Origin: Acetobacter sp.
GTDB taxonomy: Bacteria; Pseudomonadota; Alphaproteobacteria; Acetobacterales; Acetobacteraceae
DNA length: 64,000 nucleotides
Assembly: GCF_022483985.1 (NCBI RefSeq)
Contig: NZ_JAKVME010000001.1
Span: 2,294,001 to 2,358,000, forward strand
Direction of reading: 5' to 3'
The notes beneath the pieces were generated by a model. That model was not told the DNA's origin. It searched no databases and saw only the letters and a list, made by a program, of their open reading frames with translations. Positions 6,026-27,000 of this stretch are shown piece by piece. The translations under genes were made by a program, and so were the position numbers. The first letter of the stretch is position 1. The number at the start of each line of letters is the position of its first letter.

Positions 6026-7174
6026 TCAGACGACCGGAACGAGTGTTCCATCCCGGCTGATGAAAGAGCAGACGAGACGACGGGCTTCTGCCTCTTCGTG
6101 TGGCTCGGCGACGAGACCTGCCACAGTGACATAACCCCTGTCACGAAGAGCGCGGCCCACGGTTTCATCCGTGCCGAACGGCAGATACACCCGCTGCGGC
6201 TGCTCCCTCCGGGGAGCCGCACGGAAGACGGCATTGGGCCGCAGGGTCAGGCCACAGGCGGGCTCATTGTCGTTGCACAGATAGCGGCCGCCCCGTCCCA
6301 GCTCTTCCTGTGAGCCAAGCGCATAGACTGAAACACAGACCCCGGTGTGGTATTTCCAGCCGCGGAACTCGACCGGATCAACCGTCACCTGACAGCCCGG
6401 CACGCGGGAGCGGATCGCCGCGGTGGACTCCATGAGACGCTCACTGAAAGCGCGAGTCTTTTCAGGCAGACTGACATCGTGCAGGGCGGCGAGCGCCTGA
6501 TCCGCTTCACCGGCGGCATTGAGCAGACGGATCAGGGCGTCCGCGACCGGCCCTCCGTGTTCGGCGACGGCGGCGGCGTCCTTGCGATCAAGGGCGTGCA
6601 TCAGGGCGGTTGTGGCGGCGGCCGACAGCCCAGCCTGCTCGATTAGGGAAGGGGCCAGAGGCGGCATTGTCAGGTCGAAGGAGAGATCAGTGATACCGAC
6701 GCGGGCCAGAGCCTCGGCGGCGATAGCCACAACCTCGGCGTCGGCCTGCACGCTGTCGGGGCCGATCAGTTCAATTCCGGCCTGCCCGATCTGGCGTTCA
6801 TTCTGTCCCGCCGTGCCATTCCCGACCAGAATGACCTGCCCTGCGTAGGAGAGGCGCAGGGGGCGGGGCGTATCATGCAGACGGGTCGCGGCGATGCGCG
6901 CGATCTGCGGCGTGATGTCCGGACGCAGGGCCATCATCCGACGTGTATCGGGGTCCATCAGGCGGAAGGCCTGATCGGCCAGCGCCGCCCCTGCCCCGCC
7001 GAGCAGCGTGTCCTCGAACTCCATCAATGGCGGCGCGACGCGCTCATAACCGTGGCTGGCGAACACGGACAGGAGCGCCTGAGTGCCGTTCGCCTCGGTC
7101 TGGGCATCGACCGCGAGGAGGTCGATGAAGCCCGGCGGCAGGAGAGCCGGAGAAGGGAGCTGATCGCAGGTCAT
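6026..7174 (-). CDS. hisZ: ATP phosphoribosyltransferase regulatory subunit
   Basis: HisZ is the class II aminoacyl-tRNA-synthetase-like paralogue that pairs with short-form HisG and confers histidine feedback control. The sequence has the HisRS-like motif 2 region (MALRPDITPQIARIA), an early motif-1-like block (GYERVAPPLMEFEDTLL) and the late GRGGRYL segment. About 382 residues fits HisZ and is shorter than HisRS, because the anticodon-binding domain is missing. hisG is not in the window. The order pheS-pheT-hisZ-purA on one strand with short gaps suggests co-transcription. Confidence 0.92.
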   Translation of the reverse strand: MTCDQLPSPALLPPGFIDLLAVDAQTEANGTQALLSVFASHGYERVAPPLMEFEDTLLGGAGAALADQAFRLMDPDTRRMMALRPDITPQIARIAATRLHDTPRPLRLSYAGQVILVGNGTAGQNERQIGQAGIELIGPDSVQADAEVVAIAAEALARVGITDLSFDLTMPPLAPSLIEQAGLSAAATTALMHALDRKDAAAVAEHGGPVADALIRLLNAAGEADQALAALHDVSLPEKTRAFSERLMESTAAIRSRVPGCQVTVDPVEFRGWKYHTGVCVSVYALGSQEELGRGGRYLCNDNEPACGLTLRPNAVFRAAPRREQPQRVYLPFGTDETVGRALRDRGYVTVAGLVAEPHEEAEARRLVCSFISRDGTLVPVV

Positions 7175-13514: not shown

Positions 13515-14009
13515 ATGACAAAAAAACAGAAGCCCATGACCAGGGCTGACTTTATTTCCATCTGTGATTGCGTGTCAAAAACAGGCAACAGTTCAAATTG
13601 TATGAGACTCGCTAACCGCCCTCTTAGCGATTTATATTATTACTTAAAGAAAAATCCCGACGAACGCCAGAGGTTAACAATAGCACGAACTTTTTTTCAC
13701 GATGAAATGACCGCCGCAGTCCACGACCTCGCTTTCGGCGGCATCCCACAAATAAGAAGAACAGAAAAAGGAAAAATTGTTATAGATGAGCGAGGAAAAC
13801 CTATCATCGATAGAATTCCAGACACCCGTCTTATTACAACACTCCTGAGGGATCATTCAAGTCGCCTCGCCCGGGCTGAAAAAGCAGATCTTTCAAATTC
13901 CAACCAACACTCAACAGAAGAAAGGAACACGAGACTCAGGGATGAAATAGTTTCAGACCCACCACCCAAGGAAAGCAATACGAAAAACAAAGATCACTAT
14001 GAAGATTGA
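13515..14009 (+). CDS. Phage terminase small subunit-like protein
   Basis: A 164-residue protein with an N-terminal DNA-binding-like segment (ADFISICDCVSKTGNSSNCMRLANRPLSDLYYYLKKNPDERQRLTIAR), a middle region found in terminase small subunits (ARTFFHDEMTAAVHDLAFGGIP), and a charged C-terminal tail. In tailed phages TerS recognises the packaging site and recruits TerL. The call rests mainly on position: its end overlaps the large terminase start by 11 bases. Confidence 0.6.
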   Translation: MTKKQKPMTRADFISICDCVSKTGNSSNCMRLANRPLSDLYYYLKKNPDERQRLTIARTFFHDEMTAAVHDLAFGGIPQIRRTEKGKIVIDERGKPIIDRIPDTRLITTLLRDHSSRLARAEKADLSNSNQHSTEERNTRLRDEIVSDPPPKESNTKNKDHYED

Positions 14010-15332
14010 AGACAGAATATCTCTGACACCACCTCAAATGAGCATATATCAGCAAGGATGGAAAAAAGACGCAAGATTTCGTGTCGCAGCCTGCGGAAGA
14101 AGATTCGGAAAAACATTTGAAGCTGCGGAGGAAATCCGTCGCGCAGTAAAAAATGCAGTTTCCAGAAATATCAGCCCTGATAATGAGATATGGTATGCCG
14201 CACCAACCTACAAACAGGCAAAAAAAATATTCTGGCCAAAATTGAAAGCCAACATCCCCAAAAAATGGCTTATCCGCCCTCCAAGAGAGACAGAGCTTTC
14301 CTTGGAAGTCGGACCACAGGGGCATATTATACGCATTGTAGGATTAGAAAATTACGACTCACTGCGCGGCAGCGGTTTGTTTTTTTTTTAGGTGATGAAT
14401 GGGCAGATACTTCACCTGAAGCCTGGACTGAAGTAATCCGTCCAATGCTTTCGACATGCGAGGGTCACGCACTCTTTATCGGCACACCCAAGGGTAAAGA
14501 TCATTTTTATGATCTTTACCTGAAAGGCCAGCAGGGAAAAACGCATGAAAACGGTTGGTGGTCATGTTCTTACACCACCCTGGATGGTGGCAATGTCTCG
14601 CCTGAAGAACTCAGTAATGCAAAAGGCAGTCTGGATATTCGTGTCTACCGACAGGAATATGAAGCCTCTTTTGAAACATTCTGCGGGCGCTGCCTATATG
14701 CATTTTCACGAAAACACTCTGTTAAAAATACCATTTATGATGAAAAAAAACATGTCCATATAGGTATGGATTTCAACATAAATCCGATGTCGGCGACAGT
14801 TTGGCAGGAAACAACTGATAACAATGGAAATTTAACCACGACACAAGTAGACGAAATAATTATACAAACATCGAATACCGACGAAATGTCACAGGAAATT
14901 CTGAAAAGATACGGAACAAAACAAATAGATTTTTCTGGATCAGAAAATTATTCTACACAACACATCACAGTATATCCAGATCCCGCAGGGCAGGCCCGCA
15001 AAACATCAGCTTCGGGAAAAACCGATATATCTATACTCCTATCATATGGAATAAATATAAAAACAAGAAAACAGTCTCCACGAGTGCGTGACAGGATGAA
15101 TTTCATGAACTCCATGTTTGAAAATTCATTAAAAGAAAAAAAAGCTTTTGTTTCTTCCAAATGTATAAAAAGCATAGAAAGCTATGAACGTTACGCTTTT
15201 ATACCAGGCACATCTGAGCCAGATAAAAAGCAAGGATATGACCATCTTGTAGACGCCAGTGGTTACTATTTATACTTCAGGTTTTCTGAAAATACATTTG
15301 ACATAAAAACAAATAAAATTCTTGATAGATAG
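13999..15332 (+). CDS. Phage terminase large subunit, split by a -1 frameshift at T10
   Basis: TerL is the ATPase-nuclease that pumps DNA into the prohead. The first frame (13999-14391, 130 residues) holds Walker A, AACGRRFGKT. It then stops just after GSGLFFF. The second frame, from 14388 to 15332, resumes with LGDEWADTSPEAW and adds 314 residues, including IGTPKG (motif III-like) and the nuclease start GMDFNINPMSATVW. A -1 shift on the T run at 14380-14389 gives a continuous 444-residue protein in which FFFLGDEW is the Walker B motif. The split could be programmed slippage, a real inactivating indel, or a homopolymer sequencing error. The final part is K/N-rich, as in its phage neighbours. 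Confidence 0.8.
14380..14389 (+). other. T10 homopolymer at the terminase frame switch
   Basis: Ten consecutive T read TTT TTT TTT TAG in the upstream frame. Slipping back one base reads TTA GGT GAT GAA, restoring L-G-D-E of Walker B. The tract fits T_TTT_TTT-type ribosomal slippage or transcriptional slippage. It is equally the kind of run that mutates or is miscounted. Confidence 0.75.
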
Positions 15333-19205: not shown

Positions 19206-19885
19206 TGGATATAGATAAAATACAAAAAAAAGTTGCTTCTGGATTTAACAAAGCAGCGAATATCGCAGGTTTTTCTGTCATTCAGATACGACCTCAAAAT
19301 TCATCTATGCCTACTTCTTCAGATAAAATATCTATACTCAGATGCCTTATTGATCCATCTCCATCATTTTCTGGTCTATCTCCAATAATTTGGGGACATA
19401 AAATTTTATTTTGCGCAATTGACACTGAAAATGTAAAAATAGGTGACTATCTTGAGGTTCAAGAAGATTTAAATATATGTAATATTTCCATAGATATTTA
19501 TTTTGTTGCTCGCTTTGAACCTTGGAAACCTTTACTTATAGTTCAAACAAACAAATCCATATCTTTCTATGAATCTGATGTATCCTCTGATAATAATTTA
19601 GTCGGCTTACGTCCACCATCAGGTCCTGTCTGGAAAAACGACATTCAGATAGCCTCTAATTATCGAGTATCAATGCTTGAAATATCAGCGTCAGGACGCT
19701 CCCCTACAGGGCTAGGAACCGATCTTTCTGTCGGTAACTGGGAAATACTCATGCCACGCATTCCTGATGTAACATTATCTCAAGGACTAAGAATTAAGGA
19801 TATGGATCAAAATTGCTACCATATACTCACTGTTGAGGAAACGCAGTTTGGATTGCGGTTAATCGTAAAAAGTGATCAAGCATAA
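19205..19885 (+). CDS. Phage protein of unknown function in the connector region
   Basis: 226 residues, A+T-rich, no recognised family. Beta-rich segments include ILFCAIDTENVKIGDYLEVQED and WEILMPRIPDVTLSQGLRIKD, and the C-terminus ends with YHILTVEETQFGLRLIVKS. The last part resembles small beta-barrel head-tail joining proteins, in which a GDxLxDxxGxxYxVxxVE-like strand pattern is common. That is only a weak resemblance. It is coupled by TAATG overlaps to both neighbours. Confidence 0.55.
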   Translation: MDIDKIQKKVASGFNKAANIAGFSVIQIRPQNSSMPTSSDKISILRCLIDPSPSFSGLSPIIWGHKILFCAIDTENVKIGDYLEVQEDLNICNISIDIYFVARFEPWKPLLIVQTNKSISFYESDVSSDNNLVGLRPPSGPVWKNDIQIASNYRVSMLEISASGRSPTGLGTDLSVGNWEILMPRIPDVTLSQGLRIKDMDQNCYHILTVEETQFGLRLIVKSDQA

Positions 19886-20526
19886 TGGCTACAACTTCTG
19901 AAATAGAGAACATCATTTGCAAAGAGATATACGATTATATCTATCCAGACAATTCTAATGGGATACTTAGCTCATCTATTAATCAAGACGTAAAAATTTC
20001 ACGTGGCTGGCCACAGGAAGCTGAGATATCTAGAGACTTGATGTCTTCATCGGAAATATCTTGGATAGTTGTAAACCAACAATATGGGCAAACAAAAAAT
20101 AAAACACGATATGGAAGAAAATGGAAGTTACTTGATGAAGAAAATTCATTTGGTATAACGTTAGATAATTTTATAGATTCTGCATATTATGTTCAATTTA
20201 ATGGTTTATCTATTCATGATGGCTTAGCTGGAATAGTTATAGATAAATCTGCATACCCAGTGTCCGTTAAATCTGGGCAAAATTCTCAGACTATTGCAAA
20301 AAATATATATCAAACAATTCAAGAAAATTATTCCGGAAAAATTTCGTTGGATGGTTCAACGATAATATCAAAAACAGAATTACCTATAAAGGGGTTTTGT
20401 GGAAAAAATACCACAATGTATCAGGAAATTAGTAGGTTAGAAGAAACATTCTGCACTTCGATTTTTTCTTCATCCATCATCAATCGGGATAATATAGAAA
20501 ATGCCGTGATGGCATCCTTACTATCT

Positions 20527-21817
20527 GGAGGGTTCGAAAAACCTTTGATTGACTTCTCTTGTGCCTGATTTCAGGTTTTTAGCGTGTTGACTGCTGCTTC
20601 CCTGGTCTAACTTTTACTCTGGGTTTTGAGCAGAGCGATGGTTTCCTGCTCTGGATTGCTACGCGGCGGCGTTAATCCGCTCCAAGAGGAGAAAGCGGCG
20701 CATATTATAGACGATATTGGCCAGCCCGACCCTCATGGTGGCCCGCGTTATGCCTACGGTTCGGACGAACAGCCCCGTCTGTGATTTCTGATCGGCAAAG
20801 ACATGCTCGACACGCGACCGGATAACGGACTTTCCTGCGTTGGATCTCTGGATATGGCGTGGCATAGGCTTGAGATGCGGCTTTTTCCTGTGAACCTTCG
20901 AGACAAAGCCCTGCTTTTCCATGAAGTCCTCATTGGCTTTTGAGCGGTAGGCTGTGTCTGCCCAGACCGTTGAAGCTGTATTGCTTTTATCAAGCAGGCC
21001 CTCCCTCAATCGCGCGCCATCACTGGCGGCGGCATCTGTCGTCTTCCATTTGCGGATCAGCCGAAATTTCCGGTCGATGGAGATGTGCGATTTATAGCCA
21101 AAGAACGGGATGGCCAGATCTGTTGCAGGGATACTCCCGTCCTCCTGTCGCTTCGCTTTCGTGAACTTCAGGGTCCAGCGCGCATGCCTGTCCTTGTGGG
21201 ACAGCTTTGACGGCTTGTCCTGCCAGTCCTGAGGGATCCGTCCTTCACGCAGATCCGCCTTCTCCGCATTGGTATTGCGCTGCTTCGGAGCCGCTACCAG
21301 CGTGGCATCCAGGATCTGGCCTGACATCGGCAGATAACCAGCGTTACGCAGGGTTGCGTCAAAGCGATTGAACAGACCACCAATCGCACCAGCCTGGGTC
21401 AGACGCTCTCGAAACAGCCATACCGTTCTGGCATCAGGTACACGGTCCGACAGCCCCAGACCTAAAAAGCGCATGAAGGAGAGACGGTCGTTGATCAGGT
21501 ATTCCGTCCGTTCATCGGACAGATTGTTGAGTGTCTGGATCACCAGGATCTTGAACATCAGCACCGGATCAAACGGTGGACGCCCGCCTTTGCTCCCGTC
21601 TGAATAGGCCAGTGCCTTGTCCAGTTCCGGGCGGAACACCTCAAAATCCACAGTCCGGGAAAACGCTTCAAGCTGGTCGCCAAGACCGCTTAACCGAGCA
21701 AGCCGCTCTTCAACGTCAAAAAATCCCGCCTGTTTCATAGCGCCATTCCTCCAACCAGAACCAGAAAAATGGAATCACAGCGTAGGCCTCAATACCAAGA
21801 GGTTTTTAGAACCCTCC
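20527..21817 (-). mobile_element. IS5-family insertion sequence, copy 1 (1291 bp)
   Basis: Both ends carry the inverted repeat GGAGGGTTC(G/T)AAAAACCT, and ATCT is duplicated at 20523-20526 and 21818-21821. One transposase gene lies on the minus strand. Length, 4-bp duplication and transposase type fit the IS5 subgroup of the IS5 family. A copy of the same length with the same transposase sits at 40642-41932 in opposite orientation. The insertion disrupts a phage gene, so it arrived after prophage integration. Confidence 0.93.
20659..21738 (-). CDS. IS5-family transposase, copy 1
   Basis: A 359-residue DDE transposase, full length. It has the N-terminal InsH-type helices (MKQAGFFDVEERLARLSGLGDQLEAF, then GGRPPFDPVLMFKILVIQTLNNLSDERTEYLI). 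The catalytic region includes GQILDATLVAAPKQRN (first Asp), VWADTAYRS (second Asp, DTAYRS) and SRVEHVFADQK (final Glu, in the RxEHxF motif). No internal stop or frameshift is visible, so it is probably active. The translated protein is identical to that of copy 2. Confidence 0.93.
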   Translation of the reverse strand: MKQAGFFDVEERLARLSGLGDQLEAFSRTVDFEVFRPELDKALAYSDGSKGGRPPFDPVLMFKILVIQTLNNLSDERTEYLINDRLSFMRFLGLGLSDRVPDARTVWLFRERLTQAGAIGGLFNRFDATLRNAGYLPMSGQILDATLVAAPKQRNTNAEKADLREGRIPQDWQDKPSKLSHKDRHARWTLKFTKAKRQEDGSIPATDLAIPFFGYKSHISIDRKFRLIRKWKTTDAAASDGARLREGLLDKSNTASTVWADTAYRSKANEDFMEKQGFVSKVHRKKPHLKPMPRHIQRSNAGKSVIRSRVEHVFADQKSQTGLFVRTVGITRATMRVGLANIVYNMRRFLLLERINAAA

Positions 21818-22060: not shown

Positions 22061-23623
22061 ATGACAATTATAACTCAATCTGGGACATTGAATACAAATT
22101 CTCTTTCTGTTCCAGATCTCTATATTCAAATTCAGACAAGTGGCACCACCTCCTTATCTGGTGCACAAACTGACATTATCGGCGTTGTCGGAACTTGTTC
22201 ATGGGGGCCTAAAAATACCCCCTTGGTTTTTGGAACTTCAGCCGACAGAGCTGCCTATTTTGGGTCAATGCAAGATAGCCCATTTGATTTAGCAACCATA
22301 TCATCCACTGCTATTTTACAAGGTGCCTCAAATTTTGTTGGTGTAAGGGTTACAGACGGAACAGACACATTTGGTTCTGCGCCCGTTCTTCTTCAGAATG
22401 AAAACCAAACGTATCCGGTTTTAATCAGTTCAAAATACACTGGATCAGAAGCAAACAATATCACCTTTAATATTTCTGTTGGATCTGCCCCAAAAAGCTG
22501 GAAAATAACAGTAAATATGCCGAATTATCTACCAGAAGTATTTGATAATATCACATATCAATCAGACAATAATTTATTTTGGAACAATCTTGTTTCTGCA
22601 ATAAACAATGGCCAATCATCTTCTCGTGGACCGAGTTCAGTAGTCACTGCAACATTAGGTACGGCCACTGATGTAGTTCCCAGTGCCGTGAGTACAACTG
22701 CACTGGTCGGTGGTACCGATGGAAATTCTGCCGTAACAGCAAATACACTATTAGGCACCGATGGTATTCTTCGGACGGGTATGTATGCCCTCAGAGGACA
22801 GAAATGCAGCCTAGGCGTTCTTTCAGGTGTTACAGATGATACAACTTGGTCTACTCAGGCCGAGTTTGGTTTGTCGGAAGGTATCTACATGATTACATCC
22901 GGTGCTTCAGGTGAATCTATCGAAACAGCTTCAATAAAACGGAGTTCAATCGGCGTCGACAATTATAGCCTGAAAGCTATGTTAGGTGACTGGCTTTATT
23001 GGTACGATAGTGAAAATTCTCTTACGAGGTTGGTGCCTCCTACAGGCTTCGTCGCAGGACGCTTGGCAGCGCTTTCTCCTCAACTTCCTAGCCTCAACAA
23101 ACAGATATACGGTGTCATTGGCAGTCAAAAATCTGGGCTTGTAAGTTCTGGACAAAACCTAACTTACTCTTCTGCTGAGTTGACTTCTCTTTTTACAAAT
23201 GGGATTGACGTTATTTGCAATCCTGCTCCTGGAGGAAGTTACTGGACAGTAAGAGCAGGCATCAACATTTCAAGTAATTCAACGAATAGCGGAGATGAAT
23301 ACACAAGAACCACTAATTTCATAAGTGAAACCCTCGCCGGCGGTATGGGAATCTATATTGGTCAACCAATATCCCCATCTTTATTCACAGACATTGAAGC
23401 GACATTAACCGGATTCCTTTCTGATTTAGAGCAGCAAGGCGTCATAGGTACATCCTCTGGCAGTACACCCTACTCTGTTATCTGTTCTACAAAAAACAAC
23501 CCTCAGTCTCGGACATCCTTAGGATTCTTACAGGCAGATATCAGCGTGACTTATTTCGGAATTAACAAGAAATTTATTGTTAATATTACTGGGGGGGCCG
23601 GCATTACGGTTTCAAACAACTAA
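22061..23623 (+). CDS. Phage contractile tail sheath protein
   Basis: 520 residues. It has the N-terminal VPDLYIQIQTSGTTSLSGAQTDIIGVVGTCSWGPKNTPLVF pattern typical of sheath subunits (entry strand followed by GxxxxGPxxxP), then ASNFVGVRVTDGT and a Gly-rich repeat of ALVGGTDGNSAVTANTLLGTD. The C-terminal part has ISPSLFTDIEATLTGFLSDLEQQGVIG and a final SVTYFGINKKFIVNIT strand. The sheath surrounds the tube and contracts to drive DNA injection, so this remnant derives from a myovirus-type phage. AGGA precedes the ATG. It is coupled to the tube gene by TAATG. Confidence 0.87.
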   Translation: MTIITQSGTLNTNSLSVPDLYIQIQTSGTTSLSGAQTDIIGVVGTCSWGPKNTPLVFGTSADRAAYFGSMQDSPFDLATISSTAILQGASNFVGVRVTDGTDTFGSAPVLLQNENQTYPVLISSKYTGSEANNITFNISVGSAPKSWKITVNMPNYLPEVFDNITYQSDNNLFWNNLVSAINNGQSSSRGPSSVVTATLGTATDVVPSAVSTTALVGGTDGNSAVTANTLLGTDGILRTGMYALRGQKCSLGVLSGVTDDTTWSTQAEFGLSEGIYMITSGASGESIETASIKRSSIGVDNYSLKAMLGDWLYWYDSENSLTRLVPPTGFVAGRLAALSPQLPSLNKQIYGVIGSQKSGLVSSGQNLTYSSAELTSLFTNGIDVICNPAPGGSYWTVRAGINISSNSTNSGDEYTRTTNFISETLAGGMGIYIGQPISPSLFTDIEATLTGFLSDLEQQGVIGTSSGSTPYSVICSTKNNPQSRTSLGFLQADISVTYFGINKKFIVNITGGAGITVSNN

Positions 23624-24048
23624 TGGCTACTACATACACTCTTGGTCGACAAGGCTCAATCATTCTGATCTGGAATGGAAACAGGATTGATATTCAGGAT
23701 GTTACTGATTTCAATGTCCATCAAGAAGTTCGAGTGCAGAAAGTTTCTCCACTCAATAAACCTCCTGTTGAATTCAATACACCAGCAGGATGGAGAGGAT
23801 CATTCACAGTAGATAGAGGAAACTCTTCTTTAGATGATTTATTTAACACAGATGAACTTGCTTTCTGGAACTCAAACACTATTTCATCTGGAGTACTGTA
23901 TTGTTATATTCAAGAAAGTGACGGGAGCACTTCAAAATTTGAATATAGTGGCTTGAGTTTATCTTTTTCAAACGCAGGAAAATTTACGGCCGAAAATGTT
24001 GTGTCTCAATCTGTAACATTTTTTGCCAGTCTACGAAGAGCTATATGA
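23623..24048 (+). CDS. Phage tail tube protein
   Basis: 141 residues, the size of small tail tube subunits that polymerise inside the sheath. Beta-rich sequence with GSIILIWNGNRIDIQDVTDFNVHQEV, GWRGSFTVDRGNSSLDDLF and a final NVVSQSVTFFASLR, a pattern close to Mu-type and FluMu-type tube proteins. It lies directly after the sheath and before the chaperone gene, as in most myoviruses. Confidence 0.8.
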   Translation: MATTYTLGRQGSIILIWNGNRIDIQDVTDFNVHQEVRVQKVSPLNKPPVEFNTPAGWRGSFTVDRGNSSLDDLFNTDELAFWNSNTISSGVLYCYIQESDGSTSKFEYSGLSLSFSNAGKFTAENVVSQSVTFFASLRRAI

Positions 24049-24051
24049 TCG

Positions 24052-24369
24052 ATGCAAGATAATGTAATTAAAATTGTTTGTGAATCTGGAAAAGAACTTA
24101 TTTATAAAGAAATAACACCAAGTGAAATGCTCGATATCATTTTGCTGTGCGGTCCGGATGGCTCAAAAAACGAAACCTATATTAATATAGTTCAGCAATG
24201 GTGTTCAATTCGCTCTATTAACAATATACCCGTTCCATTCCCAAGAAATAAAACCATGCTCGACGTTCTCGCTAATGATATCGGTATGGATGGTATAAAA
24301 TCTATCGAAGAGCATCTTATTTCTATGGAAGACAATAAAAATAACGATATTGATGTAATAAAAAACTAG
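24052..24369 (+). CDS. Tail assembly chaperone, short form (G-like) with -1 frameshift extension
   Basis: A 105-residue acidic protein between tube and tape-measure-like genes, where tailed phages encode the G/GT chaperone pair. It contains KELIYKEITPSEMLDIILLCGPDG and a Trp/Cys-bearing middle. The gene ends ATA AAA AAC TAG: the heptamer A_AAA_AAC at 24360-24366 is in the canonical slippery phase and the stop is the next codon. After a -1 slip translation continues with LASSPSLSEIITLLKANIPYD through WDWRLRAAAIVVIG to a TAA at 24537-24539. This adds 57 codons, for a product of about 162 residues. In lambda and many other phages the short and long forms coat the tape measure during tail assembly. 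Function here is inferred from position and frameshift. Confidence 0.8.
   Translation: MQDNVIKIVCESGKELIYKEITPSEMLDIILLCGPDGSKNETYINIVQQWCSIRSINNIPVPFPRNKTMLDVLANDIGMDGIKSIEEHLISMEDNKNNDIDVIKN
24360..24366 (+). promoter_or_regulatory. Slippery heptamer A_AAA_AAC for -1 ribosomal frameshift
   Basis: The zero frame reads ATA AAA AAC TAG, so the heptamer has the X_XXY_YYZ phase required for tandem slippage. The stop immediately after would normally end the short product. The -1 frame is open for 57 further codons to 24539. I could not assess a downstream stimulatory stem-loop by eye. Confidence 0.8.
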
Positions 24370-24505
24370 CTTCCTCTCCATCTTTATCAGAAATAATTAC
24401 TTTGTTAAAGGCAAATATTCCCTATGATCTGATCATGCAGTGGGACTGGCGTTTGCGGGCTGCCGCTATTGTCGTCATAGGGAAAATGGATGGAGGGGAT
24501 TTTTC

Positions 24506-25357
24506 ATGGGAACGCCTTCAGTGGTCAGAACAAAAATAAGAGTAAATTTATATAGAAAAAACAATGAAATAAAATATATATTTTTGCGAAACCCTATACA
24601 TACTAAAAATATATATTTTTATTTAAAAAATAAAATAATTACAAATTTTAAAAGATATTCAAGAGCATTTAACAATCATACACGCCATGGAATAAATTAC
24701 TCCAACACATCTCAAGCATTCTATTTTCACAGCTTAAATAACATTTACAACAATAAAAGCCATAAAATAAATATAGAAAAAAATTCAGGCGATAAAATAA
24801 ACAATTATATTAAAAAAATACATAAAAATACAAATAAAACTAAAAATTATATTGAAAATAATTTATGCAGCTTTTTAAAAAAAGTAGAAAAACTACATAA
24901 AAGGAAACACATCAATTTAAAGAAGGATAATTTCAAAAAACTTTTTTATTTTCCTTTTCATTATTATATTCATAACAATAATATTGATAAAAATAAAATT
25001 TATAAAAATTCATCAAATTCAGTTAATAAATTTGATAATATAATAAAAAATACTTCTCAAAATATAAAAAATGCACTTTTAAATAAATTAATAAAAAACG
25101 AATTTTTTACAGAAAGACGGGCAGATTCAAATTATTTTTCTTTTCTCAAATCGTCTGAATCTGATAACAATACACATTTATATAGTTCACAACTTAACAC
25201 AGATCACTCCATAAGAAAATATGATAAAAATTTAGACATTCATGACATTGCAAGCATGGTTGAATCTCAACTCAACCAGTCACTTCGTTCTCCTCCTAAT
25301 GGCTCATTAATGTCATGGGTACAAAGTGTTCCAAGCTATCCTGGATTACATATTTAA
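24506..25357 (+). CDS. Very A+T-rich, Lys/Asn-rich protein in the tape-measure position
   Basis: The ATG at 24506 has a strong GGAGGGG 7 bases upstream and overlaps the frameshifted chaperone end by 34 bases; an earlier in-frame ATG at 24440 is less likely. The product is 283 residues, extremely rich in Lys, Asn and Ile, with no recognised domain and only short hydrophobic patches. The site between chaperone and baseplate-like gene is where tape measure proteins lie, but 283 residues is very short for one. It may be a deletion derivative or a different protein. Base use is far more A+T-rich than any neighbour. The stop overlaps the next start (TAATG at 25355-25359). Confidence 0.5.
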   Translation: MGTPSVVRTKIRVNLYRKNNEIKYIFLRNPIHTKNIYFYLKNKIITNFKRYSRAFNNHTRHGINYSNTSQAFYFHSLNNIYNNKSHKINIEKNSGDKINNYIKKIHKNTNKTKNYIENNLCSFLKKVEKLHKRKHINLKKDNFKKLFYFPFHYYIHNNNIDKNKIYKNSSNSVNKFDNIIKNTSQNIKNALLNKLIKNEFFTERRADSNYFSFLKSSESDNNTHLYSSQLNTDHSIRKYDKNLDIHDIASMVESQLNQSLRSPPNGSLMSWVQSVPSYPGLHI

Positions 25358-26263: not shown

Positions 26264-26461
26264 ATGAAAACAGGAAAAATTATCAATGTAAGCGCCAGTG
26301 ACGTTTCACTATGGCATATCGCAGCAAAATATTTAGGTGACGCAACACAGGCAAATAGAATTATGGCTCTCAATAATCTCAACGATACATGGATTTTGTC
26401 AATGACCACTCTTACTTTACCAAGCTATGATCTCAGCCAAGGTGGAGGAATTATCCAATAA
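26264..26461 (+). CDS. Small LysM-like tail protein
   Basis: A 65-residue protein with one LysM-like domain: SLWHIAAKYLGDATQANRIMALNNLND, then ILSMTTLTLPS. Such small proteins (gpX or gp53-like) help assemble the baseplate or bind peptidoglycan in contractile phages. It is the last recognisable phage gene. Its stop lies only 16 bases before the homology of the adjacent IS remnant, so later baseplate, fibre and lysis genes appear to have been removed. Confidence 0.7.
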   Translation: MKTGKIINVSASDVSLWHIAAKYLGDATQANRIMALNNLNDTWILSMTTLTLPSYDLSQGGGIIQ

Positions 26462-26476
26462 TCTATTGAAGAGTTC

Positions 26477-27000
26477 TCAGAACCTCCATTCGACTTTTTC
26501 TGCATTAAGAACGACTTTCAAAACCACGTTTTGAGTGCCTGAAAGCATATTGAGTGAGCATGCGATCGTGGTGAATACCAGATGGATGTTGACCCTTCGT
26601 TCGCAGCGCACGGTGACGTGTCTGAAACGTGATATCCAGGCGAATATGCGCTCGACGACCCAGCTATGCTTTCCGAGCTGTGAGCCGCTTTCGATGCTTT
26701 TTCTCGCAATACGCTGCCTGATCCCACGGCGGGACATGCGAAACGGCAATGTCTGTAATCATAGCCTTTGTCAGCGTGAAGCTTTTCAGGGCGCTGACGC
26801 GCCCTCCCGGGCTTCTCCTGAATGGAGGGCAGAGTACCAGCAGAGGTTTCAGCATCCTGCTGTCATGGACATTCGCCCCGGACAGCAGGACGGTCAGCGG
26901 AATAGCATGTCGATCAGTGATGATGTGATGCTTCGGCCCGGTCTGACGCGATCCTTAGGGTTCACTTCCTCCCCTTTTTTGTGCTGCAATGGACACACTG
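26477..27000 (-). pseudogene. Degraded IS5-family (IS427-like) transposase remnant
   Basis: On the minus strand the sequence reads, in pieces, TGPKHHIITDRHAIPLTVLLSGANVHDSRMLKPLL, then a frame change to LHADKGYDYRHCRFA, then another to RRGIRQRIARKSIESGSQLGKHSWVVERIFAWISRFRHVTVRCERR. These are the catalytic blocks of IS427-group transposases (TDxxGIPL, DKGYD, WVVERxFAW), but spread over at least two frames. The N-terminal part is unrecognisable and I cannot see a matching inverted repeat on the right. It marks the deletion end point of the prophage. Bases 27001-27349 hold no gene that I can support. Confidence 0.75.

Follow-up and report, generated by a model that had tools for sequence, protein, structure and literature searches.

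A tail gene of an Acetobacter sp. prophage very likely undergoes programmed −1 ribosomal frameshifting, yielding two tail assembly chaperones: a protein of 105 aa, G, and a fusion of 162 aa, GT. The gene lies in a stretch of 64,000 nucleotides that we analyzed as a whole and call the window (Table 1). G ends in ATA AAA AAC TAG at 24358–24369, bearing out the first-pass annotation, which had placed an A_AAA_AAC heptamer in the correct phase right before the stop. That annotation also held that the −1 frame stays open for 57 codons, past the start of the next gene, and that the long form has about 162 residues; the frame does close at the TAA at 24537–24539, overlapping the next ORF by 34 nt, and 105 plus 57 codons give 162 aa. 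The A_AAA_AAC site before the −1 extension T, as described, is real.

In the mechanism that we favor, most ribosomes would terminate at the TAG, giving G, and a minority would slip back one base into T while tRNA-Lys occupies AAA and tRNA-Asn occupies AAC. By analogy with phage lambda, the part of G would be to coat the tape measure protein and that of T to bring in the tube subunit. An mRNA stem starting 5 nt past the heptamer would promote the slip, formed as a local hairpin in most relatives and, in the window's clade, between the 5′ arm and a partner about 115 nt on, inside T. The conserved stop in the spacer would probably sit in the A site while the ribosome pauses.

Table 1. Features of the tail locus, in window coordinates.
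Feature	Position	Strand	Basis or remark
Tail sheath	22061..23623	+	PHROG 23 tail sheath, E 2.2e-42
141-aa protein in tail tube position	23623..24048	+	Follows the sheath; PHROG 12993 (unknown function), E 3.9e-34
G, candidate zero-frame tail assembly chaperone, 105 aa, ending ...IKN, TAG	24052..24369	+	ATG 24052; homologues in the same position
Slippery heptamer A_AAA_AAC, in phase X_XXY_YYZ	24360..24366	+	Relatives have A_AAA_AAC/T/G/A or G_GGA_AAC/T there
Zero-frame stop TAG, 0 nt from heptamer	24367..24369	+	Sequence; adjacency common in relatives
T, −1 frame extension, 57 codons plus TAA (24537–24539)	24366..24539	+	Base 24366 read twice
Spacer, 5 nt, heptamer to predicted stem	24367..24371	+	
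5′ arm of predicted long-range stem	24372..24383	+	Duplex search, alignment, pair probabilities
3′ arm of predicted long-range stem, 12 pairs	24488..24499	+	Covariation; in-context pair probability 0.80–1.0
GGAGGGG, Shine-Dalgarno-like, 7 nt before ATG 24506, within the 3′ arm	24492..24498	+	Sequence
Next ORF, 283 aa, tape-measure position	24506..25357	+	Without convincing family match

By its gene content the locus is that of a contractile-tail prophage, because the sheath, a protein in the tube position and head genes lie upstream, the latter (terminase parts, portal, scaffold, and major head protein) further left; the prophage is probably defective. Among annotated phage records, the best matches of the sheath are the Komagataeibacter phages phiKX1 and phiKX2 (45.5% identity). 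Profile searches, including PHROG, gave no tape-measure family match for the next ORF, which aligns from residue 1 (ATG 24506) in the relatives L007, L008, and L010. In phiKX1 the G/T pair is followed by a 171-aa neck-like ORF and then by a 742-aa protein matching tape-measure families. An IS transposase (PHROG 3598) occupies 20659–21738, between the ORF at 19885–20568 and the sheath; in L164 and L165 homologues of that ORF and of the sheath lie about 200 nt apart. At 26264–26750 a 65-aa ORF with weak LysM/tail-type matches is followed by short transposase-like pieces and host-type genes, and no more tail genes beyond the 65-aa ORF were seen by eye in the window's ORF list. The prophage is probably incomplete, since the tail genes stop and transposase-like pieces and host-type genes take over; with an IS in it and its terminase gene broken over two frames, it may never be expressed.

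Within the window, a lone heptamer is weak evidence because 38 occur in phase in the 3309 codons of the 13 listed phage ORFs, a count from which the split large terminase was excluded. Only the heptamer at 24360–24366 opens a −1 frame of 57 codons, the runners-up in these ORFs opening 42 and 40. A second in-phase A_AAA_AAC within G, at 24165, leads into a −1 frame that closes after 4 codons, and it is broken in relatives even where Ser-Lys-Asn is kept (L009); by this comparison it is a natural negative control for the site at the end of G. When the bases of the T region were shuffled, the frame remained open in 490 of 20,000 cases. Shuffle and heptamer-frequency evidence being thus limited, conservation is the decisive evidence.

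The 141-aa tube-position protein served as search bait. We examined 201 related loci: 30 places, counting that of the window, from a 100-genome search, two phage records that are identical across the locus, the best 80 of 311 viral contigs, and 89 later loci from the family-wide survey with the L134 tube protein, comprising 29 new locus ids and 60 places hand-picked for spread, the sets overlapping. Repeats and the window counted, 198 of the 201 retain an in-phase slippery heptamer (29/30 genome places, 2/2 phage records, 78/80 viral contigs, and 89/89 later loci), so the alignment with relatives that the first-pass annotation had proposed speaks for the site. The 78 viral contigs are 75 recognized by ORF choice plus L118, L136, and L142 recognized by inspection; in L118 the G frame looks shortened and the heptamer is present. 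For the 89 later loci, the heptamer nearest the stop with at least 40 open −1 codons was taken. In the 198 heptamer loci the −1 extension follows wherever the contig reaches that far; T is damaged in L098, runs off the end of four contigs, and extends beyond the usual stop in L018. L130 has T in the −1 frame and lacks a canonical heptamer, and L154, which has no G ORF with a stop, is uninformative on the heptamer. A separate arrangement is found in L035 (about 2290–2510), which has no heptamer: T there is read in +1 with respect to the frame of G and begins at an ATG of its own within the end of G. This could represent another route to T or, alternatively, a −2/+1 shift.

Across 168 distinct loci, which entered the table by having the site, the heptamer is AAAAAAC or GGGAAAC, with another last base in seven. 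The X_XXY_YYZ pattern is constant and its letters vary: xxA AAA AAC or xxG GGA AAC occurs after eight amino acids (A, I, V, S, L, P, Q, or T), the codon used at the site always ending in the needed base. Elsewhere in these genes, A, V, I, and S codons end in A in only 646 of 6041 cases. Lysine at the site is encoded by AAA in 107 of 107 instances, in loci chosen for the heptamer, versus 225 AAA to 294 AAG elsewhere. Heptamers elsewhere in G are not enriched in the right phase (13, versus 20 and 24 in the other phases).

Of 87 distinct loci, 78 have the zero-frame stop directly after the heptamer; it lies 39 nt away in eight and 18 nt away in one. The same adjacency holds in 78 of the 89 later loci, ten of which were already in earlier sets and one of which is a repeat; the remaining stops lie at 18 nt (six), 39 nt (three), and 21 nt (two). 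A sublineage with the stop at 39 nt (L026, L030, L031, L032, L127, L128, L129, L132, L133, L141, L266, L267, and L270) has a conserved C-terminal tail, ending ...GS where shown. According to an excerpt of PMC10885494, the heptamer-to-stop distance averages 26 nt over one large training set of phages, and an excerpt of PMC4373837 describes how, at an HIV site in bacteria and in human cells, a stop after the slippery site lowers −1 shifting through release-factor competition, which counts against the mechanism that we favor. The adjacent stop in the present family may set a low level of GT, or it may act as a pause. From the alignments, its conservation would be a new part of the picture, going beyond the first-pass annotation.

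We also considered how the host would decode the site. Its genome has 45 tRNA matches, 44 of them called by ARAGORN, among which are tRNA-Lys species for both anticodons, UUU and CUU, and a single tRNA-Asn with GUU; queuosine transglycosylase is present in the host and in 14 of 14 control genomes. In Escherichia coli, the available parts of PMC5009743 and PMC4066793 describe A_AAA_AAG as far shiftier than A_AAA_AAC, a point against the favored mechanism, and the former notes that a single lysine tRNA reads both Lys codons there; A_AAA_AAC is given as proven in one insertion-sequence cluster (PMC4066793, in part). A dedicated CUU tRNA could give these phages a reason to use AAC, and the host tRNA set fits a preference for AAC over the AAG favored in E. 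coli.

The structure downstream of the heptamer takes two forms. In most relatives, a local hairpin, GGCACCCC/GGGGTGCC, lies about 5 nt after the heptamer. The fold of nt 5–75 reaches z ≤ −2 in 12 of 15 GC-rich relatives, with L026, L031, and L030 weaker. In 11 ungapped loci, 80.9% of cells are paired in this hairpin, versus 41–51% when the arms are slid; pairs changed on both sides are not above shuffles (139/500). No consistent upstream Shine-Dalgarno stimulator was seen by eye. The first-pass annotation had suggested folding the 60 bases past 24366 in search of a stimulatory structure; in the window itself the first 74 nt past the heptamer contain no stable structure (z 0.73). In the window-clade loci L012, L014, and L016, other local folds have z from −2.3 to −3.2. 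RNAalifold on ungapped alignments proved uninformative, missing the far stem and blurring the local one because relatives have shifted arms.

Because the window has no local fold, we ran a long-range duplex search. In all 15 loci of the window's clade, the 5′ arm pairs with a stretch starting 113–122 nt past the heptamer. Over these loci 94.4% of cells pair, versus 48–65% when slid; nine cells changed on both sides and the covariation score are each reached in 1 of 500 shuffles, counts that are inflated by the relatedness of the loci, and two of the five measures, both-side-changed pairs and further pair types, are not above shuffles (229/500 each). Speaking against the stem, equally strong pairing occurs at 3 of 1546 control positions taken from the phage's genes. 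An excerpt of PMC7618472 gives 5–9 nt as the spacer range of −1 frameshift signals, and the window's 5-nt spacer and predicted 12-bp stem supply the spacer and 3′ structure of such a signal. We recognized no long-range stems in phage tail frameshifts in the parts of the literature available to us.

A real frameshift might nonetheless need only the heptamer and the stop, the far stem being an idle by-product of conserved Ser-Pro and Asp-Gly-Gly codons. We consider this unlikely, and the covarying pairs speak against it. The best of them, 18:135 (UCU-GGA/UCC-GGG) and 21:132 (CCA-GAU/CCG-GAC), have changed doubly in separate sublineages, at synonymous third codon positions on both sides, so protein constraint offers no explanation for them; 5 of the 12 pairs are invariant, as a by-product would predict. 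When synonymous codons were permuted with the T protein kept (in the 15 clade loci; L135, L147, L160, and L161 were left out), the window's duplex was equalled or beaten in 5 of 500 permutations and those of the other 14 loci in 0–179 of 500. All 15 members fall on the stable side of the permutation mean, with L014, L016, L017, and L018 equalled in just 0–3 of 500; the test is weak for L007, L008, and L011 (63, 47, and 31 of 500) and not significant for L020 (179 of 500), which suits a by-product. Pooled over six sublineages, p is ~8e-6 when a chosen member represents each of them and 3e-4 when its weakest member does. The far stem also starts at the same 5–6 nt spacer as the local hairpin does elsewhere. 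On the side of an idle stem are the wider spread of stop adjacency than of the stem and several heptamer-bearing relatives without a significant stem by our test: z exceeds −1.5 in 12 of the 78 new loci in the later set.

The distribution of the predicted stem was followed over 80 distinct downstream regions, of which 61 pair best locally and 19 far, with z < −2.5 in 57 of the 80; the 78 new loci of the later set, including the 12 with z above −1.5, all find their best partner locally. The 19 consist of the window's clade (15), L134, L135, L102, and L030. Far pairs number 14 in L134 and 18 in L135, whose local pairing is weak; L102 pairs both far (−26.2) and locally (−21.4) and is not counted a sure far case, and L030 has no clear stem. 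On an unrooted tree of 80 tube+G+T rows, a mild weakness of which is that T itself is included, the far state needs two changes with L102 and L030 uncounted, and none of 200 bootstrap trees needs only one; the best-supported branches alone force only one. Counting L102 gives three changes, at least two of them forced; we prefer the lower count, without L102 and L030. From this distribution, the window's relatives appear to have exchanged a local 3′ partner for a distant one while keeping the 5′ arm, and this change of stem partner would be a second part that is new beyond the first-pass annotation.

More tentatively, and on balance doubtfully, the swap of the 3′ partner, with heptamer, stop, spacer, and 5′ arm fixed, could go together with a coupling of T to the start of the next gene. 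In the window's subclade (L006, L007, L008, and L010) the new 3′ arm also holds the next gene's Shine-Dalgarno-like sequence. If the reading is true, ribosomes shifted into T would open the stem and expose the next-gene start site, and initiation at the next gene would make the frameshift signal weaker, so that the amounts of GT and of tape would be linked. The NTG there is partly a by-product of a conserved Trp codon, so the coupling is still a guess.

The coding signal that the first-pass annotation had wished to see conserved in the −1 frame is strong. In nine chosen close pairs, differences in T at codon positions 1, 2, and 3 number 26, 12, and 115, and dN is far below dS in eight of the nine (L014–L016: dN 0.017, dS 0.032). 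By these substitution patterns, T is evolving as a protein under purifying selection in the close group. The loci compared share no start codon at the beginning of T, and start-based annotation would accordingly miss or shorten it. In phiKX1 (L004), for instance, T is annotated as a short separate CDS at 6345–6524, starting 18 nt past the heptamer at 6321–6327, much as the first-pass annotation had warned that ordinary annotation would overlook the extension. We found no earlier literature on a frameshift in this phage group, and the word “frameshift” is absent from the available part of the phiKX1 paper (PMC8566455).

That phiKX1 record, and L035 with its own ATG for T inside the end of G, would suit a T made by re-initiation as a separate gene with no fusion, which we nevertheless regard as very improbable. 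No start position is common to the loci, and the first ATG, GTG, or TTG codons of the window's −1 frame are a TTG at +36 and an ATG at +69 (the first in L009 is also at +69), too late to include the conserved first residues of T. T could likewise come from transcriptional slippage on the A6 run, which the window shares with 107 of the 168 distinct loci; we give this still less credence, as the other 61 have G_GGA_AAC or G_GGA_AAT, with heptamer runs of at most 3, the run itself is only 6 long, and both phase and X base are conserved. Decay of an old prophage gene as the origin of the G/T split, for which the IS at 20659–21738 and the split terminase could be cited, is refuted by the same split in 198 of 201 loci and by the purifying selection on T in the close group, leaving it almost no probability. 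Programmed frameshifting into T thus stays our preferred account.

A second frame break in the window deserves separate mention. The large terminase (13999–15332) is split, its zero frame ending ...GSGLFFF-TAG at a T10 run (14380–14389) and its remainder (LGDEWADTS...) lying in the −1 frame. Five species (L166–L170) have exactly T10 and the identical split, and both halves show dN of 0.02–0.21 with dS of 0.3–3.6 or saturated; on these ratios both look to be under purifying selection. In sister lineages (e.g., L172, L173, and L176–L178) the terminase is read through in one frame, and L195, a short sixth fragment, has nine T and another frame. By this comparison the split looks more like programmed slippage than decay; we found no case of programmed slippage in a terminase in the portions of the literature available. 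In another survey, a homologue of the L134 tube protein occurred in 121 of 299 sampled family genomes, representing 48 of 102 genera (E 1e-20 or better), which seems many for a single prophage type.

Since G/GT frameshifting is textbook knowledge, the site itself is expected. The family offers many divergent copies whose slippery site, stop, spacer, and 5′ arm are for the most part constant and whose 3′ partner varies; with them one could test cleanly which properties a stimulatory stem requires and whether a spacer stop helps or hinders. It also indicates that a stem can be missed when just 60–75 bases past a heptamer are folded, and that T may be wrongly annotated as a short gene of its own.

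G matches PHROG 20383 (unknown function; E 6.5e-10), and searches against known chaperone families found no match (none convincing in Pfam, none among solved structures, and none with P2 gpE); family searches with T likewise returned nothing convincing. The chaperone family is diverse, according to an excerpt of PMC5009743, so that a sequence match is not strictly defining. By its site and conserved −1 extension, G/T is a frameshift of the ordinary, known G/GT tail-assembly-chaperone type, the chaperone role being the presumed one. A close parallel is lambda G/GT, with, by gene position, the same tube-G-T-tape order and a −1 shift late in G, on an in-phase GGGAAAG; unlike the window, lambda has its stop 15 nt downstream, AAG rather than AAC, and an annotated T of ~140 codons, and by the same geometry its best duplex is −14.6 kcal/mol (a raw value, with no shuffle comparison). 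P2, with its E/E+E′ pair, shares the contractile tail and, by gene position, the order sheath, tube, E/E+E′, tape, and its record annotates a −1 frameshift; it differs in having TTTTTTG as heptamer, a stop 18 nt downstream, a best duplex of −14.1 kcal/mol, and a gpE with no detectable sequence relation to the window's G.

Other systems resemble the window in single features, here as described in the available parts of the papers cited. IS3-family elements use bacterial −1 frameshifts with 3′ hairpins of 17–131 nt (PMC4066793), IS3411-type elements have apical-loop/internal-loop pairs 44–104 nt apart, and related IS elements can use different stimulator types (both PMC5009743); IS3 and IS3411 shift in transposase genes, whereas the window's family has a tail gene and one 5′ arm with two alternative 3′ partners. 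A stop directly after the slippery site is also known from eukaryotic viruses (PMC4373837), which differ in being eukaryotic, and long-range pairing from barley yellow dwarf virus (PMC7618472), where it spans 4 kb. The haloarchaeal virus HCTV-2 likewise uses A_AAA_AAC as the shift site of its g-t pair (PMC5009743), in an archaeal host.
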